This document shows, piece by piece, positions 1,696 through 24,123 of a stretch of 42,424 nucleotides of DNA; position 1 is the first letter of the stretch, and every line of letters begins with the position of its first letter. Under the pieces are notes generated by a model that was not told the origin of the DNA, ran no database searches, and saw nothing but the letters and a program-made list of their open reading frames with translations. The DNA comes from Bacteroidota bacterium (lineage in GTDB: Bacteria > Bacteroidota > Bacteroidia > Bacteroidales > CG2-30-32-10), in NCBI GenBank assembly GCA_013377115.1, contig JACAAW010000011.1, positions 1 to 42,424 of the forward strand, read 5' to 3'. A program made the translations under genes and the position numbers.

Positions 1696-1995
1696 TATTT
1701 ATCAATATTTCTGCATATTTCTTTTCTGTTTTGCTTGAATCTCTTTGTTTTAGGTGTATTTGTGTTTTGTAAATTCTTGAAATTTAATTAAAAGCAGAAT
1801 GTTTTCGGTAAAAATGACTATAATTTGGGTGAAATTGCAGATAAGATTTAATAAAAATTCAAATTTTCCTTGTATTTTATTTTGTTTTTTTGTGTGCAAA
1901 ATTTCATCAAATTATTTTTTTTTGAAAATAATTCATTATTAGACAACCTTTTTTCATTTTTATGTCTATATTTACGTATTCAAAATCAAAACTAT
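1696..1995. other. AT-rich spacer between divergent genes
   Basis: No gene is seen. The stretch is very AT-rich with long T runs. For the plus-strand adhesin gene the best -7 candidate is TATATTTA (1967-1974), one base off consensus and without a clear -33 TTG. Confidence 0.5.
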
Positions 1996-4900
1996 ATGAA
2001 AAAAAAATTACTCCCATTCATTATTGGTTTTTTGTTTCTTTCTTTAATAACCAATGCACAGATAACTGTTAATAATACACCTACAGCAACGCAGCTTGCA
2101 AATATTTTGGCGGGCTCAAACCTTGTGGTGTCTAATGCAGTATTAACCGGAGCCACTACTGCGAAAGGTTCCTTTTTAGCAACAAATAATAATCTGGGAA
2201 TGACTTCCGGAGTTATTTTGTCGACAGGATTGGTTAGCACTGCTCCTGGTCCAAATGGAGCTGGAAATACCTCAAATAATTTAGGAACTGCTGGTACTGC
2301 GCAAATGACCACTCTTGCTGGAGTTACTACTTATGATGCAATGACTTTGGAATTTGATTTTACGGTGCAGTCTGATATGATTCAGTTTAATTATGTTTTT
2401 GCATCTGAAGAATATCCTGAATATGCGCCACCTAACAATTCTTCCTATAATGATGTTTTTGCATTTTTTATTTCTGGTCCAGGGATTACTGGTTCAGAAA
2501 ATATTGCTTTGATTCCAAGTACAACTTTGCCAGTTACTATTAATAATCTTAACGCGATTACTAATTCTCAGTTTTATGTTAATAATACTGGGGGACAAGA
2601 TATTTCCTTTGATGCATTTACAACATTGTTGACAGCACAAAAAACTGGTTTGATTCCATGCAGTACTTATCATTTAAAATTGGTGATTGCAGACGCTGGT
2701 GATGCGGCTTATAATTCTGCTGTATTTTTACAAGAAAACAGTTTGGTTCAAGGGATTGTTGATGTTAATACCAATACAATTAGTGCCAATGATACTGCTT
2801 CTGAAGGTTGTGTAAAAGCAAGTTTTACCTTCTCATTGGATCAACCTGCTGTGATTGATAAAATTATTAATTTCCAAATTGCAGGAACTGCTACCAACGG
2901 AATTGATTATGCTCCAATTGCAAATTCACTTACCATTCCTGCTGGTCAAACTTCTGCACAAGTTTTTATCGATGCTTATTCTGATGGTATTCCTGAAGGA
3001 ATTGAAACTGTTTATATCATTTATAAACCTGAAGTCTGCGCGCCATATGATACGGCCAAGCTGTATATACGAGATAATGTCTCGATAATTTATACCATCG
3101 ATCCAACAGATCTGGCATGCAACGGAAACCAAACGGGGCAGATTCTTGTTAATGCAAGTGGAGGTTTTCCGCCTTACACTTATGAAGTGAAAGATGATAT
3201 GGGTGTCATCACTCAATATACGAATAATCCAATAACAGGACTTGATGCTGGAACTTATGTCGTTTACGTTTATGATATATATGGTTGCAAAGCCGAAGCG
3301 CAAGTTGTTGGTGGTTTATTTAATGCAGGAACAACTTTTCTGCCGGATGGTAGTGGTGTAACCTATACTTCAACCATTCCAATTTCTGGTTTTAGTTCGG
3401 GACAAACTTTAACCTCCTTGTCAATGCTTCAAAACCTATGCTTGAGTTTGGAACATTCTTATTTGGGCGATTTGGGTATTTCTATTATTGCTCCTGGTGG
3501 TCAGACCGTGATTTTAAAAAGTGGATATAATGGAGGAAGTTGTGATTTAGGTGAACCAATTGCTACTGGCCCTGTTGATGGTTCCGCAGGTTCTTTACTT
3601 ACTGATCCAGGAGTTGGATATGATTATTGTTTTAATGCATCTCCAATGTATGGCACAATGGGAGCTGAATCAAATTTGCATTATAGAAATTATACCGATT
3701 CACAAGGTCACAATTATAGTGATAATTATCTTCCTGCTGGAAGTTATACTTCCGAACAATCATTGGCTGGCCTTATTGGAACGCCACTTAATGGAAACTG
3801 GACTATCCAGGTAATTGACAATATGTATCTTGATAATGGCTATTTATTTAATTGGACCATCAGTTTTATTGGAGATTTACCCGATTCAATTGGAATTATT
3901 AATGAACCAGCTCCAATCGTAGTCAATAATTTTGTTACCAATGCTACCTGTGGAAGTAGCAATGGTGCCATTAACATTTCTGTAAGTGGATCCTATCCTG
4001 CCTTTACTTATTTATGGAGCAACGGTGCAACTACCGAAGATATTTCTAATTTAATTGCAGGTTCTTATACCGTTACAGTTACTGACAATCATGCTTGTAC
4101 CAAGGTCGTTACTTATAATGTTAGCAATAATGGTACATTGGATTTAACTTCCAATGTTACTCCTATAACTTGCGCTGGAGCTAATGTTGGGGCAATTGAT
4201 ATTACGCCAACTGGTGGTGCAACACCATATACTTATTTATGGAATAATGCTGCTACAACACAAGACCTCACTGCTTTGGCAGCTGGGACCTATACTGTAA
4301 GTGTTACAGATCAGAATTCTTGTGTTTTGGTTAGACAGTTTGTTGTTACAGCAAATACACCAATTCAAATAAATCAAATTAGTTTACAAAATGAAAATTG
4401 TGGTACACAAAACGGAGCGATTTCAGTTTCTGCAGCAGGTGGATCTGGCTCTTTTGGTTATCATTGGAGTAATGGTGCAACAACTTCTTCGATTACTGGT
4501 TTAACTGCTGGAAATTACACTGTAACAGTTACTGATGCCTACAATTGTACTGCAAGTCATACTTATACGATTATAAATGATGTTTCAAACTGTGTTACTT
4601 ATTGCTATCTTGATGTTGTCCAAAATTCGGTAACTGATGATATGTGCGGAAATGCAATAGGTGCAATAAACATAACAATTACAAATGCAACATTACCTTA
4701 TGCAGTTTCGTGGTCGAATGGCGCTACTACTGAAGATATTTCAGGATTATTACAAGGTAATTACACTGTAACCGTTACTGATGCCAATCAATGTATAAAA
4801 GTTAAAACAATTAGTGTTGGAAATAATACAGGAACATTATCGATTTCAAATTATTTAGTTACCAATGAAACTTGTGGAAGTGTTAACGGATCTATTGATA

Positions 4901-7900
4901 TTACTCCAACTGGCGGTGCATTACCTTACCAATATTTATGGAGTAATGGTGCAACTACCCAAGATTTATCGAATGTTGCCGCCGGAAATTATACTATTCA
5001 ATTAAAGGATGCCAATAATTGTACTTATACCAATTCTTATTCAGTTCTTAATAATGCAGGAAATTTAACAGTTTCTGGTACTATTGTGAATGAAGTTTGC
5101 GGTGCAGATAATGGTAGAATTATTCAAACTGTTAGTGGTGGTTTTGGATTGATTACTTATCATTGGTCAAATGCAGCTACTGTTCAAACATTAAATAATA
5201 TCCCTGCTGGAAATTATTCCTGTACCATTACTGATGCTGGCGGTTGTTCTTTAGTTAAAAATTATGTAGTTCAAAGTCTTCCTGGTAATCTTGCAATCTC
5301 AAATACAGTTATCACCAACGAAAGCTGTAATAATAATTTGGGAAGTATTAATTTAACTGTCAGCGGAACAAGTCCTTTGTATATATGGAGTAATGGAGCA
5401 ACCACTGAAGATATTTCTTCGCTAAATGCTGGTATTTATTCATGTACAATCACAAATAATCAAGGATGTACTGTTTTAACAGGACCTTTAAATGTTTTTG
5501 ATGCTCCAAGTAATATGGTGGTTTCAACCAATCAAATCATTGATGAATTATGTGGAAATAATAATGCTTCGGTTACGGTTAATATTACGGGAGGAGTTAG
5601 TCCATATACTTTCCATTGGTCTAATGGTTCAAATTCTCAAAATATTTATACCATTCATGCTGGAAATTATTCATTAACAGTGACTGATGCCAATGGTTGT
5701 CAGGCAAATTACAGTTGTGTTGTGGATAATTCACCAGGAACTTTGGTAATTCAAAATGCTGCAGTAACTAACGAAAACTGCGGTAACTCAAATGGAGCAA
5801 TCAATCTAACAATAAATGGCGGAACAACACCTTATACTTATTTGTGGAGTACTGGAGCTACAACACAAAATATTACTGGAATTCCAGCTGGTAATTATAA
5901 TGTTACTGTTACTTCGGCTAATGGATGTGTTCAGAATAGAAGTGCTGTGGTTGTAAATAACGCCAACGGCATGACTCCAACTTGGCAGATAACCAATGAA
6001 CTTTGTAGTAATTCACAAGGTGCTATTGATTTAACTGTAACTGGCGGAAATGCACCGATTGTTTATCTTTGGTCGAATGGTGCAACAACACAAGATTTGT
6101 CAAATATTGCTGCTGGAAACTATTCATGTACCATAACAGACAATACTTTATGTAAATCTCATATTGGGCCTATCACAATTAACAATACTTCTGCAAGTAT
6201 GTCAACTTCTACCATTGCAACAAACATTATTTGTGGCAGTGGTCTTGGTGCAATTAATTTGACGGTAACTGGTGGTATTGCTCCACTAACTTATCTTTGG
6301 TCGAATGGCGCAACAACAGAAGATTTAACTTCACTTGCAGCGGGTACTTATTCTTATACGGTAACGGATGTCAATAATTGTAAAGATTTTGGTTCTGCAA
6401 TTGTTACCAATAATCCATCTGGCAATATGAGTTTTACAACAAATGTAACTAACGAACAATGTAATAGTAATTTAGGAGCCATCAATAATACCATCTCTGG
6501 TGGTGCAACACCATATACATTCTTATGGAGTAATGGCGCAACAACAGAAGATTTAACGGCATTAAATAATGGCAACTATTCCTGTACAATTACCAGTTCA
6601 AACGGATGTGTTTTAAATACTGGAATTATTTCTGTTGACGATATTCCTGGAACACTTGTTATTAATACGATTACTACGGTTGATGCAATTTGTGGAAATA
6701 GTTTAGGAAAAGTTAATATCACAGTAAGTGGTGGCACAACACCATATACTTATTTGTGGAGCAACGGCGCAACAACGCAAAATATTACGGGATTAGCTGC
6801 TGGAAATTATATTGTAACAGTTACTGGAGTTGGAGGTTGCACTGTTGTTGGTCAAGCTACTGTTTTAAATGACAATGGTGCATTTAATATTAATAATTAT
6901 GTAATAACAAATGAACATTGCACCAATCATTTAGGAGCCATTGATATCAGTGTTCAGGGAGGGACAACTCCTTATACATATTTATGGAGTAATTCTTTAA
7001 CAACTCAGGATATTAGCAATTTGGCAGCTGGTGGCTATTCTGTATATGTTCACGATGCATTGGGATGTTTTACTAATGGTGCATATACGGTGATAAATCA
7101 GGGATCTAATTTCCAGATAACCAATGCAGCTATTACTCATGGTGTTTGTGGAAATTCAAATGGTTCTATAAATATTACTGCTACTGGCGGAACAGCTCCA
7201 TATCAATTTACATGGAGTAATGGAGCGCATACCGAGGATATCAGTAATTTGAGTTCAGGATCCTACACTGTAAACATTGTTGATGCAAATGGATGTAATA
7301 CCACTGGCACTTATCAAGTAAATAATTTACCTGGAACAATGGTTATTGCTGGAACTACTTCAAACGAATATTGTGGAAATGGTCAAGGTAGTGTAATTTT
7401 AAGTTTATCAGGTGGCGATAATCCATATTCTTATAATTGGAATAATTTAGCAACATCTCAAAACATCACAAATCTTCACGCAGGAAACTATAGTGTTACA
7501 ATTACAGATAATTTAGGTTGTACAGGTACTTATTCTGGAGTAGTTTCAAATACAACAAACGGTTTTGCGGCTAATGTTTCAGCAATTACTGATGAAAATT
7601 GTGGTAATCAAAACGGAGGAGTGAACATTACTGTAAGTGGTGGAATTGCACCAATTAGTTATTTATGGAGCAATGGAGCTACAACTGAAGATATTACCAA
7701 TGTTCATAGTGGAAATTATTCAGTAACAGTAAATGATGTTAATGGCTGTTCTGTGGTTCTTCCAGCTACGGTTATTAATGTTTCCGGAACTTTAGCTTTT
7801 TCTTTTACCAATACTCATGACGAAGAATGCAGTAATTCTCAAGGATTTATTGATATTCAAATTAGTGGAGGCGTAAATCCTTATACCTATTTATGGAATA

Positions 7901-9633
7901 ATGGTTCAACCACACAGGATTTAACTGGTCTTGCTTCGGGAGCTTATTCGGTAACCGTTACTGATGGTGCAAATTGTCATTTGATTTCAAATTATCAAAT
8001 TAACAATACGTCTGATATTAATGCAAGTGGAGTTGTAACCAATTCTTTATGTGCTGGAAATACAGGTTCAATAAATATTTCCTTGGTTGGTGGAATTACC
8101 CCAATTTCTTATCTGTGGTCAAATGGGTCAACAAATCAGGATTTAAATAATATTGGTTCAGGAACTTATTCTTTAACCATTACTGATGGAGCTGGTTGTA
8201 CAAACCATCAAACTTTTTCGGTATATCAACAAAATAATCCAAATCTTGCATTTATTAATGTGTTTTCAAATAATGATTATTGTGGTGGTTCAAGCGGAAG
8301 CATTAGTTTTGATGGCGTTGGAAGTGCAATGATTGGTTATTATTTAGACAATGTAAATATTGGCTGGGGCTGGGCAACAAATTTATCAAGCGGAACTTAT
8401 GTTATTTCGATTATTGATGAAAACGGTTGCAGACTCGATTCCTCAATATTTGTTGGAAATGACACTTATATTTTGCTTAATTCAAATTTTGAAAATGAAA
8501 CTTGTAGTCAAGGCAATGGATCATTGAGTGTTTCTTCAAGTACACCTGGAGTAACTTATTCATGGAGTAATGGAGCATCAGGTTCGTTCCTCGCAAATTT
8601 AAGTGCAGGAACATATTACTGCACCGTTTCTGATGGTTCTTGTTCAGTTATCGACACGCTTACTATTATCAATGAATTTGATTTTACAACTTCTACAGCA
8701 GTAACTAGTGATTATTGTGGCGGTAATGTTGGTGCAATAGACTTAACTGTTGTAGGCCCCGACGTATATCAATATCATTGGAATACTGGAGCGATTACAC
8801 AGGATTTAAATGGAATTACAAGCGGCAATTATTTATGCACAGTTACCAATTCAAATACTGGTTGCGAAAATATTGTAAATGTTTTTGTTCCATCTTCCTC
8901 TTCAGGAGTAAATTTGAATACGGTTATTTTACCTGATACTTGTAATGCTGATAAAGGCTCAATTACCAATACTGCTTTTGGTGGATCTGGGAATTATTCT
9001 TATGCCTGGGATAGCGGTCAAAATACCTTGAGTTTAACCAATATCACAGCAGGAAATTATGTATTGACAGTTACTGACAATTCTGATAATTGCCATTTAG
9101 TAATGTATTATACCATTCCAAACGTAAAATCATTCCATGTTACATCTTCATATACAGATGCAACATGTGGTTCATGTAATAATGGGACAATGTTGCTTAC
9201 ACCAATAAATAACTCTGGTTTTACAAATACTTTCAGCTATTTATGGAGTAATGGTGCGACAACGCAAAATTTAACAAATGCATTACCTGGGAATTATAGT
9301 GTTTATGTTTCCTCAAATATTGGTTGTGATACAACTATATATTTCACTATTAGTTTCCCAACAGCACTTGCTGTTCAAACAGCCAATTTGATGAATATGG
9401 AAATTGCACCAAATCCTGCAAATGATAATTTTACGGTTCTATTCAATATTCCGGATGGCAAAGAAGCCACTTTATTGATTATTGACATGAATCGTAAAGA
9501 AGTTTATAAGCAAAGTGTTGCAGGCAGAAACAAGCAATCTATTAATAGCCTCAATTTAGCACCAGGCGTTTATAATGTTGAAATTTTCAACGAAAAAATG
9601 ATGATGCATAAAAAACTGGTAATAGTTAAATAA
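1996..9633 (+). CDS. Giant SprB-like T9SS-secreted adhesin
   Basis: The product is 2545 residues. In order: a signal peptide ending TNAQ (about 1-21), a choice-of-anchor L type domain (about 22-265, with FASEEYPEY), a Calx-beta-like domain (about 275-375), one SprB-type repeat (about 380-465), a P-domain-like beta sandwich (about 468-630), about 24 modules of 70-80 residues (about 640-2455), and a T9SS sorting domain (about 2465-2545, starting at APNPANDNF). Most modules read CG-x-x-NG, then GG-x-x-PY-x-YLWSNGATT, then AGNY-x-VTVTD and a closing Cys; this is the SprB repeat (PF13573) pattern known from gliding adhesins. It should be exported by Sec, crossed to the surface by T9SS and act as an adhesin or motility adhesin. 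The start is the ATG at 1996, directly before the signal peptide; the frame is open upstream but gives an implausible leader. It stands alone, with a terminator after it. Confidence 0.93.
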   Translation: MKKKLLPFIIGFLFLSLITNAQITVNNTPTATQLANILAGSNLVVSNAVLTGATTAKGSFLATNNNLGMTSGVILSTGLVSTAPGPNGAGNTSNNLGTAGTAQMTTLAGVTTYDAMTLEFDFTVQSDMIQFNYVFASEEYPEYAPPNNSSYNDVFAFFISGPGITGSENIALIPSTTLPVTINNLNAITNSQFYVNNTGGQDISFDAFTTLLTAQKTGLIPCSTYHLKLVIADAGDAAYNSAVFLQENSLVQGIVDVNTNTISANDTASEGCVKASFTFSLDQPAVIDKIINFQIAGTATNGIDYAPIANSLTIPAGQTSAQVFIDAYSDGIPEGIETVYIIYKPEVCAPYDTAKLYIRDNVSIIYTIDPTDLACNGNQTGQILVNASGGFPPYTYEVKDDMGVITQYTNNPITGLDAGTYVVYVYDIYGCKAEAQVVGGLFNAGTTFLPDGSGVTYTSTIPISGFSSGQTLTSLSMLQNLCLSLEHSYLGDLGISIIAPGGQTVILKSGYNGGSCDLGEPIATGPVDGSAGSLLTDPGVGYDYCFNASPMYGTMGAESNLHYRNYTDSQGHNYSDNYLPAGSYTSEQSLAGLIGTPLNGNWTIQVIDNMYLDNGYLFNWTISFIGDLPDSIGIINEPAPIVVNNFVTNATCGSSNGAINISVSGSYPAFTYLWSNGATTEDISNLIAGSYTVTVTDNHACTKVVTYNVSNNGTLDLTSNVTPITCAGANVGAIDITPTGGATPYTYLWNNAATTQDLTALAAGTYTVSVTDQNSCVLVRQFVVTANTPIQINQISLQNENCGTQNGAISVSAAGGSGSFGYHWSNGATTSSITGLTAGNYTVTVTDAYNCTASHTYTIINDVSNCVTYCYLDVVQNSVTDDMCGNAIGAINITITNATLPYAVSWSNGATTEDISGLLQGNYTVTVTDANQCIKVKTISVGNNTGTLSISNYLVTNETCGSVNGSIDITPTGGALPYQYLWSNGATTQDLSNVAAGNYTIQLKDANNCTYTNSYSVLNNAGNLTVSGTIVNEVCGADNGRIIQTVSGGFGLITYHWSNAATVQTLNNIPAGNYSCTITDAGGCSLVKNYVVQSLPGNLAISNTVITNESCNNNLGSINLTVSGTSPLYIWSNGATTEDISSLNAGIYSCTITNNQGCTVLTGPLNVFDAPSNMVVSTNQIIDELCGNNNASVTVNITGGVSPYTFHWSNGSNSQNIYTIHAGNYSLTVTDANGCQANYSCVVDNSPGTLVIQNAAVTNENCGNSNGAINLTINGGTTPYTYLWSTGATTQNITGIPAGNYNVTVTSANGCVQNRSAVVVNNANGMTPTWQITNELCSNSQGAIDLTVTGGNAPIVYLWSNGATTQDLSNIAAGNYSCTITDNTLCKSHIGPITINNTSASMSTSTIATNIICGSGLGAINLTVTGGIAPLTYLWSNGATTEDLTSLAAGTYSYTVTDVNNCKDFGSAIVTNNPSGNMSFTTNVTNEQCNSNLGAINNTISGGATPYTFLWSNGATTEDLTALNNGNYSCTITSSNGCVLNTGIISVDDIPGTLVINTITTVDAICGNSLGKVNITVSGGTTPYTYLWSNGATTQNITGLAAGNYIVTVTGVGGCTVVGQATVLNDNGAFNINNYVITNEHCTNHLGAIDISVQGGTTPYTYLWSNSLTTQDISNLAAGGYSVYVHDALGCFTNGAYTVINQGSNFQITNAAITHGVCGNSNGSINITATGGTAPYQFTWSNGAHTEDISNLSSGSYTVNIVDANGCNTTGTYQVNNLPGTMVIAGTTSNEYCGNGQGSVILSLSGGDNPYSYNWNNLATSQNITNLHAGNYSVTITDNLGCTGTYSGVVSNTTNGFAANVSAITDENCGNQNGGVNITVSGGIAPISYLWSNGATTEDITNVHSGNYSVTVNDVNGCSVVLPATVINVSGTLAFSFTNTHDEECSNSQGFIDIQISGGVNPYTYLWNNGSTTQDLTGLASGAYSVTVTDGANCHLISNYQINNTSDINASGVVTNSLCAGNTGSINISLVGGITPISYLWSNGSTNQDLNNIGSGTYSLTITDGAGCTNHQTFSVYQQNNPNLAFINVFSNNDYCGGSSGSISFDGVGSAMIGYYLDNVNIGWGWATNLSSGTYVISIIDENGCRLDSSIFVGNDTYILLNSNFENETCSQGNGSLSVSSSTPGVTYSWSNGASGSFLANLSAGTYYCTVSDGSCSVIDTLTIINEFDFTTSTAVTSDYCGGNVGAIDLTVVGPDVYQYHWNTGAITQDLNGITSGNYLCTVTNSNTGCENIVNVFVPSSSSGVNLNTVILPDTCNADKGSITNTAFGGSGNYSYAWDSGQNTLSLTNITAGNYVLTVTDNSDNCHLVMYYTIPNVKSFHVTSSYTDATCGSCNNGTMLLTPINNSGFTNTFSYLWSNGATTQNLTNALPGNYSVYVSSNIGCDTTIYFTISFPTALAVQTANLMNMEIAPNPANDNFTVLFNIPDGKEATLLIIDMNRKEVYKQSVAGRNKQSINSLNLAPGVYNVEIFNEKMMMHKKLVIVK

Positions 9634-16103: not shown

Positions 16104-18992
16104 ATGAGAAATTTTCGGAAAATAGCTTTAGCATTCATTGGATTTTATGCATTTGTTTTATCAAACCAAGCACAAAATGTTCCATTACCAATAATTGAAC
16201 AATATACATTAGCCAATGGACTTACCGTAATTTTATCTGAGGATCATGCTAAGCCTGAGGTATTTGGAGTAGTTGTTACGAAAGCTGGAAGTAAAAACGA
16301 TCCAGCAGATGCTACTGGAATGGCTCATTATCAGGAACACATGCTTTTTAAAGGTACTGAAGAACTTGGAACAATTAATTGGCAACTAGAAAAACCACTG
16401 ATTGATAAAATTTTTGAACTTTATGATTCATTAGGGAAAACTAAAGATGCAAAAGCCCGCGAAGCAATTCAGACACAAATCAACGAGTACTCAATGAAAG
16501 CTGGAGGATATGCTATCCCTAATGAATTGGATAAAATAATAAAAAGCATTGGAGGTACAAAAGTAAATGCCAATACTTCTGCCGATCGCACAATTTTCTT
16601 TAATGCTTTTCCTCCAAACCAAATAGAAAAATGGTTGGATTTATATGCTCATCGTTTCCAAAATCCTGTTTTTCGTTCTTTCCAGTCTGAATTAGAAGTT
16701 GTTTACGAGGAGAAAAATCTCTATAATGATAATTTTTCAACAGGTTTAATTGAAACATTCAATAAGAATTTCTTTAAGAAACACCCATATGGACAACAAT
16801 CAACAATTGGAACGGTTGAGAATCTGAAAAATCCTTCCTTAACGAAAATGTATAATTTTTTCAAAACGTATTATGTTGCCAATAATATGGCTTTGGTCAT
16901 AACTGGGGATTTTAATATTGAAGAAATAAAACCAATTATTGAAAAAAAATTTGGTGTTTGGCGAAGAGGTGATCTTCCAAAATTTCCTACATATGTTGAA
17001 GAACCTTTTAAAGGTAGAGAATTTGTTTCGGCAAAATTATCACCAATAAAAATTGGTTTATTCGGCTTCAGGACACCTGCAAATGGTGATGCAGATGAAG
17101 TTGCATTAAAGGTTTGCAATTCAATTTTATCCAACGATAATCAAACAGGATTGCTTGATAAATTAACCCTTGATAGCAAATTAATGGCTGGTGTTGTTTT
17201 AACGATGCCTTATAATGACTACGGCGAAACATTTGTTCTAGCTGTACCAAAAATTCTTGGTCAGTCGCTTGATGATGCCGAGAAATTGGTAATGGGTGAA
17301 TTTGCAAAGCTTCGTAATGGTGAATTTGATGATTGGATGGTTGATGCAGTGAAGAATCAATTGTATAAAGAATTTCAATTGGATTTAGAAAATAGTCAGG
17401 ATAAAGCCTTGTTAATTTCAGAATCATTTGCTCAAAATAAAAACATCAACGATTATTTAAATCTCTATTTAAAGCAAATAAAATCAATTACTAAAGCGGA
17501 TGTTATGAATGTAGCTAAAAAGTATTATGGTGATAATTATTTAGCTTTTTATTCAAAAATGGGATTTCCTAAAAAGGAAAAATTGGAAAAACCAAATTAC
17601 AAACCACTACAACCAAAAATGAATCAGGAATCTCCTTATGCAACTGTTTTTAAAAATATCAATACAAAAGCTCCAGAACCAAAGTTTATCAATTTTAGTC
17701 AGGATGTCAAAGTAGGCCAGATATTTGAAAAAGCGGTTCTATATTATGCGGTAAATCCTAAAAATGATGTGTTTTCCTTGAAAATAAAATATGGAATTGG
17801 GGAACATAAAAATCCAAAGCTTAAACAAGCGGCTGAATTGATGAATTTATGTGGAACAAAACGTTTAAAACTAGTCGATTTAAAATCGGAATTTAGTAAG
17901 ATTGGATGCAGTTATAGCGTTTCAAGCGACGAAAGCTATATCATAATTGAGCTTGAAGGTATTGAAAGCAACATGAGCATTGCAATTAGTTTAATAAAGG
18001 AATTAATTTCTGAACCTGTTATTGATAAGGAAAAGTTAAAAGTAATTTTAGAAGGGGAGAAAACAAACCGAAAAATGGAAAATACAGAGCCGGAAAATAT
18101 TGCAAAAGCTCTTATTGAATTTGTAAAGTATAAAGAAGAATCTTCCTTTTTGAGAAGGTTATCAATAAAGGAAATGGAAAAGCTTGATGCTGATTCACTC
18201 GTTGATATTTTTAAGTCAGCGATTAAATACGAATATGAAGTTCATTATTGTGGTCAATATGATTTTGAAAAAGTACTTCCAATAATGAAAGAGAAACTGA
18301 ATAACCCACCAGATTTTATGCAAAGTGAATCTCCTGTTGTTAGAAATGAGCAGATTATTACTGAAAATACTGTTTATTTGGTCAATAATAAGAATGCTTT
18401 ACAAAGTAAGATTTATTTATTTGTTAACGGAGGAGTTTATAAAACAGAATTAGAGCCATCGATTGAGGCATTCAATCAGTATTTTAGTGGAGATTTTTCG
18501 GGGTTGGTTTTGCAAGAAATTAGAGAGTTTCGGTCTTTGGCTTATGGTGCTGGAGCAAAATATTCAATTCCCAAATTAATTGAGAAAAAATCAAGTCTTA
18601 CTGGTTTTGTTGGGACTCAAGCTGATAAAACATTAGAAGCAATTCAGGTTTTTACTGATTTGATTTCAAAGATGCCTGAGAAACCTGAACGTATTGAAAA
18701 TATTAAATCATATCTAATACAATCTGCATTAACAAACAAACCTGGTTTCAGAGATTTAACAGAAACTGTTGAAGCATGGAAACTTCGCGGATTTATTGAT
18801 GATCCTGCAAAATCAAAAATTGAAGCTTACCAAAAAATTACTTTTCAAGATTTGTTGAATTTTTATAAAACAAATATTCAGAATAAGCCTATTGCAATCG
18901 CTATTGTTGGAGATAAGAAAAGGATAGATCTTGAATTGCTAAAAAAGTTTGGTAAAATAATTGAAATAAAGGAAAATCAAATTTTTAAATAG
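16104..18992 (+). CDS. Exported M16-family zinc metalloprotease
   Basis: The product is 962 residues with a signal peptide (about 1-24, ending NQAQN). The inverted zinc motif HxxEH is whole: H75-Y-Q-E78-H79, in MAHYQEHMLFKG. The downstream acidic stretch ELEVVYEEKN (about 196-204) supplies the third ligand and follows an insertion of about 50 residues after the zinc motif. Two M16 halves are present: an N-terminal catalytic half with its M16_C partner (about 30-500) and a C-terminal inactive pair (about 540-955). Pitrilysin-type enzymes close around and degrade peptides; the signal peptide places this one in the periplasm or outside. It is a single gene between terminators. The family is firm; the substrate is unknown. 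Confidence 0.93.
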   Translation: MRNFRKIALAFIGFYAFVLSNQAQNVPLPIIEQYTLANGLTVILSEDHAKPEVFGVVVTKAGSKNDPADATGMAHYQEHMLFKGTEELGTINWQLEKPLIDKIFELYDSLGKTKDAKAREAIQTQINEYSMKAGGYAIPNELDKIIKSIGGTKVNANTSADRTIFFNAFPPNQIEKWLDLYAHRFQNPVFRSFQSELEVVYEEKNLYNDNFSTGLIETFNKNFFKKHPYGQQSTIGTVENLKNPSLTKMYNFFKTYYVANNMALVITGDFNIEEIKPIIEKKFGVWRRGDLPKFPTYVEEPFKGREFVSAKLSPIKIGLFGFRTPANGDADEVALKVCNSILSNDNQTGLLDKLTLDSKLMAGVVLTMPYNDYGETFVLAVPKILGQSLDDAEKLVMGEFAKLRNGEFDDWMVDAVKNQLYKEFQLDLENSQDKALLISESFAQNKNINDYLNLYLKQIKSITKADVMNVAKKYYGDNYLAFYSKMGFPKKEKLEKPNYKPLQPKMNQESPYATVFKNINTKAPEPKFINFSQDVKVGQIFEKAVLYYAVNPKNDVFSLKIKYGIGEHKNPKLKQAAELMNLCGTKRLKLVDLKSEFSKIGCSYSVSSDESYIIIELEGIESNMSIAISLIKELISEPVIDKEKLKVILEGEKTNRKMENTEPENIAKALIEFVKYKEESSFLRRLSIKEMEKLDADSLVDIFKSAIKYEYEVHYCGQYDFEKVLPIMKEKLNNPPDFMQSESPVVRNEQIITENTVYLVNNKNALQSKIYLFVNGGVYKTELEPSIEAFNQYFSGDFSGLVLQEIREFRSLAYGAGAKYSIPKLIEKKSSLTGFVGTQADKTLEAIQVFTDLISKMPEKPERIENIKSYLIQSALTNKPGFRDLTETVEAWKLRGFIDDPAKSKIEAYQKITFQDLLNFYKTNIQNKPIAIAIVGDKKRIDLELLKKFGKIIEIKENQIFK

Positions 18993-18997
18993 TCTTG

Positions 18998-19029
18998 AAA
19001 AAAGCTCCCTCAAATTGGAAGGAGCTTTT
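18998..19029. terminator. Shared bidirectional terminator
   Basis: AAAAGCTCC (19000-19008) pairs with GGAGCTTTT (19021-19029). T-rich flanks follow on both strands, so it can stop the M16 gene (plus) and the mini-CTD gene at 19067-19537 (minus), which converge here. Confidence 0.85.
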
Positions 19030-19066: not shown

Positions 19067-19537
19067 TTATAATTTTTCTATACCATAACTTTTCGACATC
19101 TTCCCACTCATAGATGATATTTTTAATTGATAAATGCCTTTATCATAATAACTAAAGTCAATTAATTTATCAATTTTGCTACTAGTGGTTGCTAGAATAT
19201 ATTTAAGACTGCCATTACTATCAAAAAGTTGAATTATAAAATAATCTTCTATTTTGTAATTTAGATTAATTGACAAGTCATTTTTTGTAACGTATTCTCC
19301 TCTTAGTCCTGCATCTGATACATTCAAAGAAATCATATTTGTATCAGAAACCTCATTCAATTCTTTTATTAAAAATTGACTAATATTAACGGAAACAGCA
19401 TTGTTATATTCTTCTTCATCATTTGTTACTATTGGCTTAAAACTTAAATCTTGTTTAAATGAATTTAAATTTTTTGCTGAAAGATTTCCAATAAGACTTA
19501 TTGCTATTATTATTTGAATAATTATTCTTGATTTCAT
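19067..19537 (-). CDS. Mini-CTD secreted protein 1 (diverged paralogue)
   Basis: The product is 156 residues: a signal peptide (about 1-21), a short region of about 55 residues, then about 75 residues shaped like a T9SS sorting domain (IIQLFDSNGSLKYIL, then DKGIYQLKISS, then a C-terminal GIEKL). It is the most distant of three tandem relatives (19067, 19723, 20403) but keeps the order V-x-IS-x-F, a central beta pair and a GIEKL/IEQL end. An upstream motif shared with the others lies at 19593-19615, and a -7-like TAAATTTG lies at 19564-19571 on the minus strand. No function is recognisable. If the CTD-like part is a true sorting signal, little cargo is left; it may instead be a stand-alone domain that resembles a CTD. 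Confidence 0.8.
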   Translation of the reverse strand: MKSRIIIQIIIAISLIGNLSAKNLNSFKQDLSFKPIVTNDEEEYNNAVSVNISQFLIKELNEVSDTNMISLNVSDAGLRGEYVTKNDLSINLNYKIEDYFIIQLFDSNGSLKYILATTSSKIDKLIDFSYYDKGIYQLKISSMSGKMSKSYGIEKL

Positions 19538-19592
19538 ATTTTTTATTTTTCTGATTTGATATTCAAATTTACAAATAAGCAGATTTGATTGG

Positions 19593-19615
19593 AATAGGTA
19601 TCTACACTCATTTTT
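19593..19615 (-). promoter_or_regulatory. Shared upstream motif, copy 1 (diverged)
   Basis: This is a weaker copy of the motif upstream of all three mini-CTD genes (plus-strand reading ATAGGTA...ACTCATTTTT). It begins 56 bases before the start codon. Confidence 0.5.
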
Positions 19616-19632
19616 ATTTGTGGTAAACCCTT

Positions 19633-19666
19633 AAAAAAAAAGCCCCCTCAAACCACTAAGGGGGCT
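19633..19666 (-). terminator. Terminator of mini-CTD gene 2
   Basis: AGCCCCCT (19641-19648) pairs with AGGGGGCT (19659-19666); the A run at 19633-19640 gives the U tract on the minus strand. The loop CAAACCACTA is nearly the same as in the terminator of gene 3. Confidence 0.9.
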
Positions 19667-19722
19667 ATCAAACATGAAAATAAAAACTAATTAAAATAAA
19701 TCAAAACCAAAATTAACTGAAC

Positions 19723-20205
19723 CTATAATTGTTCAATGCTATAATATTTTATTAAATTTCCAAATTGAGAAGAAATCTTTAAAGTATAAATCCCCTTTGG
19801 AAATGAACTTAAATCAACCTTCTTTTGAAAAGAATTTGATTTTATGGTTTTATGGTAAAATGAAGATCCAGTTTTGTTAAAGAATTCAATAATATAATAT
19901 TCTTCAATTTCATTTTTAATATTTATTTGAATGTTATTTGTGGATAAAACCGGAATAACTTCTAAAGTTGAATTTGTTAAAGTGGAAAGCATATCACTTT
20001 CTTTTAAAATAAATTTGCTTATTCTAACCGGCGTGGTTGTTTCGTAGTTAAAATCATCTCTTACAACAATATTACCTGGATCTTGCATTTCAATACTTGA
20101 ATTTGTACAAAATAATTCATTGGCATTATCACCTTTTTGACCAAATAAATTTACTGTAATAAAAAATGCTGTTGCTAGGAAAAAAAATATTTTCTTGTTT
20201 TTCAT
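19723..20205 (-). CDS. Mini-CTD secreted protein 2
   Basis: The product is 160 residues with a signal peptide (about 1-22, ending LFGQ). It is closely similar to the next gene over about 115 residues: both have VV-x-DD-x-x-YETTTP, TNSTLEVIP, YYIIE-F, SGxxxYHKTIKSNS, and end in SSQFGNxxKYY-x-IEQL. The last 75 residues follow the T9SS CTD pattern (a strand, a G, an IDLS-type turn, PKG-x-YTLK, a final K-rich strand). The two genes clearly arose by tandem duplication. The gene has its own terminator and the shared upstream motif (20275-20297). Small secreted or surface protein; the role is unknown. Confidence 0.85.
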   Translation of the reverse strand: MKNKKIFFFLATAFFITVNLFGQKGDNANELFCTNSSIEMQDPGNIVVRDDFNYETTTPVRISKFILKESDMLSTLTNSTLEVIPVLSTNNIQINIKNEIEEYYIIEFFNKTGSSFYHKTIKSNSFQKKVDLSSFPKGIYTLKISSQFGNLIKYYSIEQL

Positions 20206-20274
20206 TGTGTGGGTTTTGTGTTATTCTTAGAAAAATCTAATGAAGCAAATTTCTATTAAATTCAGAAATCAGAC

Positions 20275-20297
20275 AATAGGTGCCAACCCTCATTTTT
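20275..20297 (-). promoter_or_regulatory. Shared upstream motif, copy 2
   Basis: The plus-strand reading is ATAGGTGCCAACCCTCATTTTT. It begins 70 bases upstream of the start codon of mini-CTD gene 2 and matches copy 3 at 18 of about 22 positions. Confidence 0.6.
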
Positions 20298-20302
20298 CTT
20301 AA

Positions 20303-20336
20303 ATAAAAAAAGTCCCCTCAAACCACTGAAGGGACT
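20303..20336 (-). terminator. Terminator of mini-CTD gene 3
   Basis: AGTCCC (20311-20316) pairs with GGGACT (20331-20336), with an A run at 20304-20311 giving a minus-strand U tract. The loop is almost that of the terminator at 19641-19666. Confidence 0.88.
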
Positions 20337-20402
20337 AAAACTTACACGAAAATAAAAAACTACTTATTAAAAGAAAGATAAATAAATAAACCAGGTAAAA
20401 AA

Positions 20403-20879
20403 CTAAAGTTGCTCGATATTGTAATATTTTACAACGTTTCCAAATTGAGATGATACTTTTAGAGTGAAATCACCTTTTGGAAATGCGCTTAAATCAATTT
20501 TCTTTTGAATTGAATTTGATTTAATTGTTTTATGATATATAGTTGCTCCGGATGTGTTAAACAACTCAATTATGTAATATTGTTCTGAATCATTTTTTAT
20601 GTTTACTAAAATATTGTTACTAGAGGCTATTGGAATAACTTCCAAAGTAGAATTGGTTGAAACAATTTTTGTTTCTAAATCAGTTATAATAAAATTACTA
20701 ATGGTAATAGGGGTAGTTGTTTCATAGCTGTTGTCGTCTTTAACAACTATGCCTTTTGGTTCACCAACTCCAAAACCAGTAATATTATTACTTGCATAAA
20801 GATTGTCTTTTTGAGCAAATAAATTTCCAGAGAAAATAAATGCTGCAAATATTGCGGTGTATAATATATTTGATTTCAT
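20403..20879 (-). CDS. Mini-CTD secreted protein 3
   Basis: The product is 158 residues, close paralogue of the gene at 19723. The start at 20879 is chosen because a good signal peptide (MKSNILYTAIFAAFIFSG, ending LFAQ) begins there. The frame is open 30 codons further up, but that leader has no signal-like order, would cover the spacer, and would run into the shared upstream motif. A short variable stretch (about 23-50) precedes a CTD-like domain (about 75-158). The upstream motif starts 89 bases before the ATG, inside the divergent region shared with the histidine kinase gene. Function unknown. Confidence 0.85.
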   Translation of the reverse strand: MKSNILYTAIFAAFIFSGNLFAQKDNLYASNNITGFGVGEPKGIVVKDDNSYETTTPITISNFIITDLETKIVSTNSTLEVIPIASSNNILVNIKNDSEQYYIIELFNTSGATIYHKTIKSNSIQKKIDLSAFPKGDFTLKVSSQFGNVVKYYNIEQL

Positions 20880-20967
20880 GGTTGTAAGTTTTAAAATTAT
20901 TATTACTAAATATTTTGTTTTGCTTTTTTCTATGATACAAATATCCCCCAAATTGGTAAACGAAACC

Positions 20968-20989
20968 ATAGGGGCTAACCCTCATTTTT
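20968..20989. promoter_or_regulatory. Shared upstream motif, copy 3, in the divergent region
   Basis: The plus-strand reading is ATAGGGGCTAACCCTCATTTTT, with an inverted repeat AGGG-GCTAA-CCCT. It lies between mini-CTD gene 3 (minus) and the kinase gene (plus), 72 bases before the kinase start, so a factor bound here could act on both. Confidence 0.6.
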
Positions 20990-21039
20990 AGAAAATAGGT
21001 GTTTTTAGCATTGTTAATAAAGGAATATTTGTTTAATTT

Positions 21040-21047
21040 TATCTTTG
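21040..21047 (+). promoter_or_regulatory. -7 element of the kinase operon
   Basis: TATCTTTG matches TAnnTTTG and ends 13 bases before the start codon, so the leader would be very short. The nearest upstream TTG (21011-21013) is 26 bases away, longer than usual. Confidence 0.5.
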
Positions 21048-21060
21048 AAATTAAAAACGA

Positions 21061-22932
21061 ATGCAAAAAAAATATTTAAATATTTCTATAGCAAGTCAAC
21101 AAAAAGACGATATTGAATTAATGTCTCAATTTTTGAATCATAATTTCAATGTCAAAATTCAAGAAATTGTTAATTTTAGTTATAGATTGGATGAGAATTT
21201 AAAATGTTCTGATGTTTTAATCTTGGATTACCGTGTTTTAAATGAAAACAATGGAATCATCCAAGAAATCAGGCATGAAATTCCGAGTTTAAATATTATT
21301 ATTATTTCTGAAAATAATGATTTGAATTCATTCTCGGAGATAATTGGTCTTGGCAAGATATTGTTTGTTTTATTACCAATTGATTATAATAAATTTAAAC
21401 AAGCCATCGAAGTATGCTATGATTTGGCTAAAAGAGATCAAAACTGTTTAGCGCAAAAATCTGAATTATTTAAACTCAAGCGTAATTTCAATTTTGAAAT
21501 TAGTATAAAAAAGCAGGCTGAGGAAGAGGTATATAAATTTCTTTATGCAATTGAACAAAGTCCTGTTACGGTTCTTATCACGGATACAAAAGGAAATATT
21601 CAATACGCCAATCCGAAATTTACTAAAGTTTCAGGATATTCATTTGATGAAGTTATTGGAAAAAACCCTAGCATTTTGAAGTCTGGTAAACAATCTGATG
21701 AGGTTTATAAAGAAATGTGGGAATCGATTAGTAAAGGAATCGATTGGTCAGGTGAGTTTCAAAATAAAAGGAAGAATGGCGAATTATATTGGGAAATGGC
21801 ATGGATTTCTGCAATTAGAAATAAAGATGGAGAAATATATAATTACCTTGCTGTAAAAGAAGATATCACTCAAAGAAAGGAAGCCGAAGATGCTTTACGC
21901 AAAAGTGAGGAATTAAATAAATATATTATTTCAGAGCTACCCTATTCTTTGTTTATTCACATTAATGGTGTTATTGTTTTTGCTAGTAAAGCATTTTCAT
22001 TATTGACCGGGCTTACAAATAAAGAACTTATAAATAAGCGAATTTTGGATTTGCTGGATGACAAAAATATTGAAGGAATTAAAGAAAAATTAAAGCAAAG
22101 AGCTTTGGGAATTGATATTCCTGATTTCGAATTAGGATTAAAAACGAAAAAAGGTTTAAAAATAGTTTCTGTATCTGGCCGAAGGATCAATTTTGAAAAT
22201 CAGGATGCTATTCTCGTTGTATTAATTGATATAACTGAAAAAAAGCAAAATGAAAATTTAGTAAGAGAGAAAATTTTCCGTCAAAAATTTTCAAAACAGT
22301 TAATTGATTATCAAGAAGCTGAAAGAAAAAGGATTTCTGCTGAATTGCATGATGGAATTGGCCAAGATGTATTGGTGATTAAAAACCATGCCTTACTTGG
22401 ATTGCATGAAAATATGGAAAAAGAAAAATTAATTAAACAATTGAACCTTATTTCCGAAACAGCTTCAAATACGATAACCGAAATTAGAACCATTTCTCAC
22501 AACCTTCGTCCTATTCATTTGGAAAGGTTGGGTCTTACCGAAGCTATTTTTACAATTATTGAAAATGTTGCAAAATCATCGAATATTGATTTTATAAAAG
22601 CTATCGAAAATATTGATGGTTTGGTTCCAAAACAAATGGAGATTAATATTTATCGAATTATTCAGGAAGGAATTAGTAATATTATTAAGCATTCAAATTC
22701 TAAAAAAGTTGAAATTTTAATAAAAAAATTAAAGAATAAAATTCGGATAACCATTAATGATAATGGAGAAGGTTTTATTCTTGAAAAAAGTAATAGAAAT
22801 TCTCAATTTGGTTTTGGATTGTCTGGTATTAGTGAGCGAGTGGAGATATTAGATGGGATTTTAGAAATTAATTCAGTCATTGGAAGAGGAACAACAGTTA
22901 ATGTTCTGATTCCTTTTAAGCAAAAAAATTAG
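21061..22932 (+). CDS. Soluble PAS-PAS sensor histidine kinase with receiver-like N-terminus
   Basis: The product is 623 residues with no membrane segment. Domains in order: a receiver-like fold (about 1-125; LILDYR keeps an Asp, but the usual Lys-Pro reads LPID, so it looks degenerate), PAS 1 (about 148-262, ending in a PAC segment DITQRKEAE), PAS 2 (about 275-392), HisKA_3 with the phospho-acceptor H430 in ERKRISAELHDGIGQD, and an HATPase_c domain (about 515-620; N-box EGISNIIKHS, G1 NDNGEGF, G2 GFGLSGI). It would autophosphorylate and pass phosphate to the LuxR-type regulator encoded 3 bases downstream. The input must be cytosolic. The gene is divergent from mini-CTD gene 3, across the shared motif. 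Confidence 0.94.
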   Translation: MQKKYLNISIASQQKDDIELMSQFLNHNFNVKIQEIVNFSYRLDENLKCSDVLILDYRVLNENNGIIQEIRHEIPSLNIIIISENNDLNSFSEIIGLGKILFVLLPIDYNKFKQAIEVCYDLAKRDQNCLAQKSELFKLKRNFNFEISIKKQAEEEVYKFLYAIEQSPVTVLITDTKGNIQYANPKFTKVSGYSFDEVIGKNPSILKSGKQSDEVYKEMWESISKGIDWSGEFQNKRKNGELYWEMAWISAIRNKDGEIYNYLAVKEDITQRKEAEDALRKSEELNKYIISELPYSLFIHINGVIVFASKAFSLLTGLTNKELINKRILDLLDDKNIEGIKEKLKQRALGIDIPDFELGLKTKKGLKIVSVSGRRINFENQDAILVVLIDITEKKQNENLVREKIFRQKFSKQLIDYQEAERKRISAELHDGIGQDVLVIKNHALLGLHENMEKEKLIKQLNLISETASNTITEIRTISHNLRPIHLERLGLTEAIFTIIENVAKSSNIDFIKAIENIDGLVPKQMEINIYRIIQEGISNIIKHSNSKKVEILIKKLKNKIRITINDNGEGFILEKSNRNSQFGFGLSGISERVEILDGILEINSVIGRGTTVNVLIPFKQKN

Positions 22933-22935
22933 AAT

Positions 22936-23613
22936 ATGTTAGAGCCTGAAGGAAAAATAATCAAAATACTTATTGCCGACGACCATCCTATTTTTAGAAA
23001 TGGTCTAAAATCGGTGATTGAATCTGTAGCTAATTATTCAGTGGTTCATGAATCTGATAATGGGGAAGATGCTTTTAAGTACATTTGTGAAAATGAAATT
23101 GATCTTGCTATTTTGGATGTTGAAATGCCTATTATGGATGGCTTTGAAGTTGCGAAGCAATTACATGTTGAAAAAAAGTCTTTAAAGATAATTTTTCTTA
23201 CAATGTTCAAGGAAGAACGATTTGTGAATAAAGTGTTAGATCTTGGAGTAAAAGGTTATGTTTTGAAGGAAAATGCCGTTATTGATATTTTGAATGCAAT
23301 AAAAATTGTGAGCACGGGAAATAAATTATATATTAGTCCCATAATTGAACATTATTTGGAAGCTAGGAATACAAAAGCCGAATATAATTATAAAGAGAGT
23401 TTTGAAAGTCTTACAAATTCAGAAAAGAAAATATTGAAATTGATTTCTGAGAACAAATCTTCAAAAGAGATTTCTGAATTGCTATTTATCAGTGGTAAAA
23501 CGGTTGAAAACCACCGTAGTAATATTTGTAAAAAACTCGAACTCACTGGAAGCAATGCTTTATTTAAGTTTACAGTTGATAATAAATTTCTAATTGATAA
23601 AATGCATTTTTAA
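22936..23613 (+). CDS. NarL/LuxR-type response regulator
   Basis: The product is 225 residues: receiver domain (about 9-125) and GerE/LuxR helix-turn-helix (about 160-215, LTNSEKKILKLI to KTVENHRSNICKKL). Key receiver residues are all present: D15-D16, phospho-acceptor D61 in LAILDVEMP, T89 and K111. The gene starts 3 bases after the kinase stop, so the two are translated together and form a cognate pair. The regulator probably binds inverted repeats near its own locus; the motif at 20968-20989 is a candidate site. The family is certain; the targets are inferred. Confidence 0.95.
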   Translation: MLEPEGKIIKILIADDHPIFRNGLKSVIESVANYSVVHESDNGEDAFKYICENEIDLAILDVEMPIMDGFEVAKQLHVEKKSLKIIFLTMFKEERFVNKVLDLGVKGYVLKENAVIDILNAIKIVSTGNKLYISPIIEHYLEARNTKAEYNYKESFESLTNSEKKILKLISENKSSKEISELLFISGKTVENHRSNICKKLELTGSNALFKFTVDNKFLIDKMHF

Positions 23614-23622
23614 ATTTTTTTT

Positions 23623-24123
23623 ATGAAAAAATCGTTTTTTGTTGCTGTTATTATTTTTGTTTCGTTTTCGGTCTTTGGTCAAGTTAAGGAAGTTATTTAT
23701 CATCCTGAATCAAATGCAGAAACCGAATTATCAAATGCCATTTCAAAAGCCAAAGCTGAGAATAAAAATATTCTCGTTCAAGTTGGTGGCAATTGGTGCA
23801 AATGGTGTTTGCGCTTTAATAAGTTTTGTCATGATACTTTGGCGATTGATTCAGCAATAAAAGCAAATTACGTTGTTTTGCATGTCAATTATAGCAAGGA
23901 AAATGAGAATTTTGAATTATTGCAGAAATTTGACAATCCTCAGAGGTTTGGATTTCCTGTTCTATTAATTTTGGATTCGAAAGGTAATAGATTGCACACA
24001 CAGGATTCAGGTTTCCTCGAATCTGGTGAAGGTTATGATAAGGATAAGGTGCTCACATTTTTAAAGCAGTGGACTTTTAGTGCTGTAAACCCTAAGAATT
24101 ATTCACCTAAATACAAAAAGTAA
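23623..24123 (+). CDS. Exported thioredoxin-like protein
   Basis: The product is 166 residues with a signal peptide (about 1-20, ending VFGQ). A thioredoxin fold follows with the redox motif W58-C59-K-W-C62 and a likely cis-Pro in GFPVLLILD, as in the thioredoxin_7/DUF255-type family. It should act in the periplasm in disulfide reduction or exchange. It starts 9 bases after the response regulator stop and is the last gene of the operon, ahead of a terminator. Co-expression with a two-component system next to secreted-protein genes may mean a role in their folding, but the mini-CTD proteins have almost no Cys, so that link is weak. Confidence 0.88.
   Translation: MKKSFFVAVIIFVSFSVFGQVKEVIYHPESNAETELSNAISKAKAENKNILVQVGGNWCKWCLRFNKFCHDTLAIDSAIKANYVVLHVNYSKENENFELLQKFDNPQRFGFPVLLILDSKGNRLHTQDSGFLESGEGYDKDKVLTFLKQWTFSAVNPKNYSPKYKK

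Follow-up and report, generated by a model that had tools for sequence, protein, structure and literature searches.

Organization of the locus

The window, a stretch of 42,424 nucleotides, is contig C13 of a Bacteroidota assembly (4.02 Mb in 296 contigs, with an estimated completeness of 94%). It carries three small minus-strand genes, here called mini1, mini2 and mini3, next to a two-component gene pair on the plus strand:

19005..19021, minus strand: weak intrinsic terminator after mini1, common to the convergent gene at 16104-18992
19067..19537, minus strand: mini1, 156-aa exported single-domain protein
19641..19666, minus strand: intrinsic terminator after mini2, 11-bp stem and T tract
19723..20205, minus strand: mini2, 160-aa exported single-domain protein
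20311..20336, minus strand: intrinsic terminator after mini3, 11-bp stem and T tract
20403..20879, minus strand: mini3, 158-aa exported single-domain protein, ATG at 20879
21040..21047, plus strand: probable -7 box of the kinase operon, TATCTTTG, with a short leader
21061..22932, plus strand: soluble histidine kinase with a receiver-like N-terminus, two PAS domains, HisKA_3 and HATPase_c
22936..23613, plus strand: NarL/LuxR-type response regulator, receiver (PF00072, 1.4e-27) and GerE (PF00196, 1.3e-14)
23623..24123, plus strand: exported thioredoxin-like protein with a CKWC motif

In line with a preliminary description of this DNA, which had recognized three minus-strand genes for exported proteins of 156-160 residues, each mini protein starts with a hydrophobic N-terminal signal; a lipobox cysteine is found in none of them. 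The second and third copies, described there as close paralogues, share 56% identity, and each of them shares 35% with mini1. At the DNA level, the coding sequences are 61-69% identical. These three are the only members of the family in the genome, all of them at this locus. A longer in-frame ORF of mini3 runs from 20969, beginning within the box region described below, and is unlikely to reflect the real start. As each mini gene is followed by its own stem-loop and T tract, the set looks like three one-gene units and not an operon.

The regulator gene starts 3 bp downstream of the kinase gene, and the pair is divergent from mini3. This layout, with a soluble PAS kinase and a LuxR-type regulator facing the third copy, had been noted before and holds, as do the domain assignments: all domains of a NarL/LuxR two-component pair are present, namely receiver and GerE in the regulator and HisKA_3 and HATPase in the kinase. 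The kinase sequence shows no hydrophobic stretch of the kind expected for a membrane span. Its N-terminus (21061-21480) resembles a receiver domain (PF00072, E 0.0024) that retains the Asp and carries Leu where the Lys of the Lys-Pro pair is usual; it is probably a pseudo-receiver. The thioredoxin-like gene follows 9 bp after the regulator gene and probably belongs to the two-component operon as its third gene. Elsewhere in the window, positions 1870-9633 encode an exported protein of ~2590 aa in which ~75-residue repeats (GGxxPYxYLWSNGATTxDL) form a long array; this protein also has a T9SS CTD.

A shared box at fixed distance from a -7-like element

Read in gene direction, AAAAATGAGKGTNNNNNCCTAT is found upstream of every mini gene, an exact form of the common upstream motif that had been reported for the three copies. 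The promoter features are:

19564..19568, minus strand: ATTTG of the presumed -7 box of mini1 (TAAATTTG), its G 30 nt after CCTAT
19594..19611, minus strand: putative activator-type box of mini1, ATGAGTGTAGATACCTAT
20246..20250, minus strand: ATTTG of the presumed -7 box of mini2 (GAAATTTG)
20276..20293, minus strand: putative activator-type box of mini2, ATGAGGGTTGGCACCTAT
20938..20942, minus strand: ATTTG of the presumed -7 box of mini3 (GATATTTG)
20968..20985, minus strand: putative activator-type box of mini3, ATGAGGGTTAGCCCCTAT, in the divergent mini3/kinase region

In all three promoters, exactly 26 nt separate the end of the box from a TTTG that is each time part of ATTTG, and the box end lies exactly 30 nt before the G of this -7-like element. 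The full TAnnTTTG is present in mini1 only. Transcriptome mapping in a flavobacterium places the TAnnTTTG box at -12 to -5 (PMC9723704). If this position is valid here, the mini box would lie at about -52 to -35, immediately before the promoter core and in the place of a class-II-like activator site. At -43 of the kinase operon, no such box is present.

The AGGG-GCTAA-CCCT inverted repeat proposed earlier is indeed perfect in mini3, but AGGG-N5-CCCT is perfect in that copy only. The palindrome ATRRG-N8-CYYAT, a form chosen post hoc, describes all mini copies better.

The box starts AAAA-ATG and is readable as codons (ATG AGK GTN NNN NCC TAT = M-[RS]-V-x-[TP]-Y), so that the conserved block might consist of short upstream reading frames for leader peptides; in mini1 and mini2 the frame also closes before the mini start. 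The mini3 frame, however, runs into the gene, and the downstream peptides share nothing. Moreover, the exact 26-nt gap to the -7-like element would go unexplained and, with ATTTG downstream of the box, the box itself would usually be untranscribed. We therefore consider leader peptides very improbable.

Conservation of the box

The conservation of the upstream regions was evaluated against 60 sets of dinucleotide shuffles, optimised over all offsets. In a 54-nt register, the three intergenic regions share 24 identical columns, versus 18.8 +/- 1.0 (maximum 21) in the shuffles. Comparing the mini1 promoter with those of mini2 and mini3, 16-18 of the 22 box letters are identical, whereas the spacer (5-6 of 25) and the upstream flank (7-10 of 36) are at chance level, which argues that the box has been kept by selection and does not reflect recent duplication. 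Since the three genes are paralogues, upstream regions might have been duplicated together with them, leaving a functionless box as a mark of shared ancestry. This explanation is largely refuted by the chance-level flanks of mini1, by coding DNA that is only 61-69% identical and by the retention of box and ATTTG at exact spacing, and we regard it as highly unlikely.

Genome-wide distribution of the box

A genome search for the motif, suggested in the preliminary description, returned the exact box core ATGAGNGTNNNNNCCTAT three times in 4.02 Mb, at the three mini genes and at no unrelated gene. Within the window, allowing up to two mismatches, only the three mini sites were found, all exact. 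Five one-mismatch copies of the core occur genome-wide, none of them with TTTG at the required spacing. A search for box and TTTG together at fixed spacing returned three exact sites, three sites with two mismatches and no one-mismatch site; the composites with two or three mismatches mostly lie within genes.

One two-mismatch match, C147:3530-3577 (L157, L160), is intergenic and reads ATAAGGGTATTCACTTAT-N26-TTTG. The gene downstream, whose ATG follows the start of the box by 85 nt, codes for a 791-aa exported protein with a G8 domain and a strong T9SS CTD. The site reads ATAAG-N8-CTTAT and, together with the mini boxes, fits ATRRG-N8-CYYAT. Genome-wide, this palindrome with spaced TTTG has five exact matches, at the three mini genes, on C147 and on C249. 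Each of the five is intergenic and precedes a gene for an exported protein, whereas matches with one mismatch mostly lie within genes. The relaxed palindrome was picked after the C147 match was known. Because of this post hoc choice, the C147 gene is graded only a good candidate for an additional regulon member, as judged from its upstream sequence. The near-palindromic boxes upstream of a gene for a 661-aa PD40-OmpA protein (C249:4329-4376, L162) and of a gene that runs off its contig and encodes an exported protein of at least 812 aa (C79:2484-2531, L161) mark a weak and a still weaker candidate target, respectively.

Identity of the mini proteins

The mini proteins had been described as consisting mostly of a T9SS-CTD-like domain. 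This holds at the level of the fold only. With TIGR04183, mini1, mini2 and mini3 score 18.7, 19.1 and 17.3 bits, all below the cut-off of 23, and the matches extend from profile position 7-11 to position 63-66 out of 72, so that the first CTD positions are missing. With PF18962 (cut-off 27), the scores are 22.4, 30.0 and 25.8, and one of the three passes. For comparison, at least 150 T9SS CTDs in the same genome score 40 bits or more.

The DUF3244 profile (PF11589, gathering threshold 25) matches mini3 with 25.4 and mini2 with 20.0, and does not match mini1; ordinary CTDs of the genome also pass it, and the DUF3244 and CTD families are thus not cleanly separable by profile. Among solved structures in the PDB, DUF3244 proteins are the best relatives of the mini proteins both by sequence and by predicted fold. 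The AF2 model of mini3 is good for the C-terminal ~100 residues only (~60-158; pLDDT ~72-92 in blocks of ten), residues 1-59 having a pLDDT below 50. It matches 3d33 (DUF3244) with a probability of 1.00 and a TM-score by target of 0.62-0.66, at a modest Foldseek E of 1.4e-3, and it also matches the CTD of mirolase and a chain of the SprA complex. According to this model, the mini proteins are Ig-like beta-sandwich proteins, with the fold common to DUF3244 and T9SS CTDs.

Like the members of DUF3244 (PF11589; 3d33, 3sd2, 4g5a), of which 3d33 and 3sd2 are among the top fold matches of mini3, they are small exported Bacteroidota proteins with one Ig-like beta-sandwich. They differ by an extra linker of 35-40 residues before the domain, and mini1 and mini2 remain below the cut-off. 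In the literature searched, DUF3244 receives passing mentions only. A second point of comparison is provided by T9SS type A proteins of ~160 aa that are mostly CTD (L069, L074-L078), which resemble the mini proteins in size, signal peptide and C-terminal Ig-like sandwich. Unlike the mini proteins, these proteins of relatives (159-175 aa) pass the TIGR04183 cut-off with matches from position 1, and they carry a different N-terminal part, a segment of the SAGG/SSGG type.

It follows that the mini proteins are better named DUF3244/CTD-fold proteins than T9SS cargo, given the missed CTD cut-off, the absent first positions and DUF3244 as the closest fold. They are probably envelope or surface accessory proteins. 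The earlier reading as CTD-dominated decoys found no support in these comparisons. A broader version, in which the mini proteins are T9SS cargo made almost only of a CTD and serve in surface display, as decoys or in PorA-like envelope signalling, would be compatible with the regulatory model below and can point to the weak Por_Secre_tail matches, to the fold matches with the mirolase CTD and the SprA-complex chain and to a genome rich in T9SS cargo. Set against the TIGR04183 scores of 17-19 bits, the missing profile start, the same-size proteins of relatives that pass with matches from position 1 and the better DUF3244 match in both sequence and fold, it appears doubtful. More generally, since the profiles of DUF3244-like and CTD sandwiches overlap, a weak Por_Secre_tail match on a small exported protein need not indicate T9SS cargo.

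A candidate local two-component regulon

A positioned common site lies upstream of all three candidate target genes neighbouring the regulator, as in a local regulon. Control of the mini genes by the adjacent regulator appears reasonably probable from sequence, and we favour, as moderately probable, a full model in which the pair switches on the three mini genes through the box. The soluble PAS kinase would phosphorylate the LuxR/NarL-type regulator, a dimer of which would bind the 18-bp imperfect palindrome ATRRG-N8-CYYAT, centred near -43.5, where the box would overlap the place of a -33 element. The bound regulator would recruit the housekeeping Bacteroidota polymerase to a poor promoter with its ATTTG -7-like element. 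Activation would turn on the three mini genes as separate units, each encoding a small Sec-exported protein with a single Ig-like beta-sandwich, and one large T9SS cargo elsewhere may be switched on as well.

The proposal that the regulator drives the three genes through the motif thus gains from an exact box that is specific to the locus, conserved relative to its flanks and placed as for an activator; the identity of the regulator is inferred from adjacency. LuxR/NarL-type regulators have a known kind of binding site with which the box is compatible, and the step from box to regulator rests on this site type together with adjacency and the private exact box. An alternative is that the box is a genuine activator site bound by another regulator, the neighbouring pair having other targets, such as just its own operon with the thioredoxin-like gene. 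Further LuxR-type regulators are indeed encoded elsewhere in the genome, one of them (contig C290) 42% identical to the regulator at the locus, and the kinase operon, with a probable -7 box of its own, lacks the mini-type box at -43. On the other hand, the exact box occurs only beside the pair at the locus, and the C290 locus has neither mini gene nor box. Binding by another regulator therefore seems unlikely.

The local regulon preferred here resembles NarL/FixJ-type local regulons in its HisKA_3 kinase and LuxR-type regulator, in the palindromic site near -43 and in targets that adjoin the regulator. It departs from them in its private box, its private target family and a soluble kinase with a degenerate receiver-like N-terminus. 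A CTD protein is also tied to a two-component system in the PorA-PorXY-SigP system of Porphyromonas gingivalis. PorA, however, possesses a FimH-like N-domain and stands upstream of PorXY-SigP, the cascade that governs T9SS genes (PMC7712824), whereas the mini proteins would be targets of a LuxR-type regulator. We see the locus as a neat but fairly ordinary local regulon, in which a regulator, its probable 18-bp box, the promoter position and a closed target set all lie within 4.6 kb. To our knowledge, the sites of LuxR-type response regulators in Bacteroidota have rarely been assigned from sequence.

Possible redox input

The best solved matches of the first PAS domain of the kinase (PAS1) include MmoS (3ewk), NifL (2gj3) and Aer (8dik), all FAD redox sensors. 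Aligned to the flavin-pocket residues of MmoS, listed in PMC9668731, PAS1 keeps the Thr and the Asn, has Pro in place of His132 and has a residue other than Arg at the Arg195 position. Despite the resemblance in structure matches, two of the four pocket residues are thus replaced, and redox sensing by the kinase is a lead only. The thioredoxin-like neighbour fits a redox theme and proves nothing. A more far-reaching reading, in which a lineage-specific redox two-component system with its own DNA code drives the private Ig-like mini proteins and selected T9SS cargo, the mini proteins acting as partners or gatekeepers of CTD proteins, is improbable at present; if true, it would amount to sensor-controlled remodelling of the cell surface.

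Distribution among relatives

No mini orthologue was detected in profile searches of 99 relatives, 393 genomes of the order and 395 of the phylum, a sampling that includes five other genomes of the family and is partial for order and phylum. Peptide scans of GTDB genomes likewise returned no orthologue of the mini proteins or the kinase. The kinase N-terminus had no orthologue among 295 genomes and the regulator none among 60; plasmid records yielded no orthologue either. Small CTD proteins of relatives (L069-L080) were rejected as mini orthologues, as they belong to another subfamily. In two of these relatives (L075:4828-6249 and L076:5123-6471), a kinase and a regulator of the LytTR type, not the LuxR type, directly precede a mini-CTD protein of 159-175 aa, followed in turn by an exported protein of the 'FKYQAIARD' type. 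Neighbouring genes for a mini-CTD protein and an FKYQA-type protein recur in L069, L071, L072, L075, L076 and L079.
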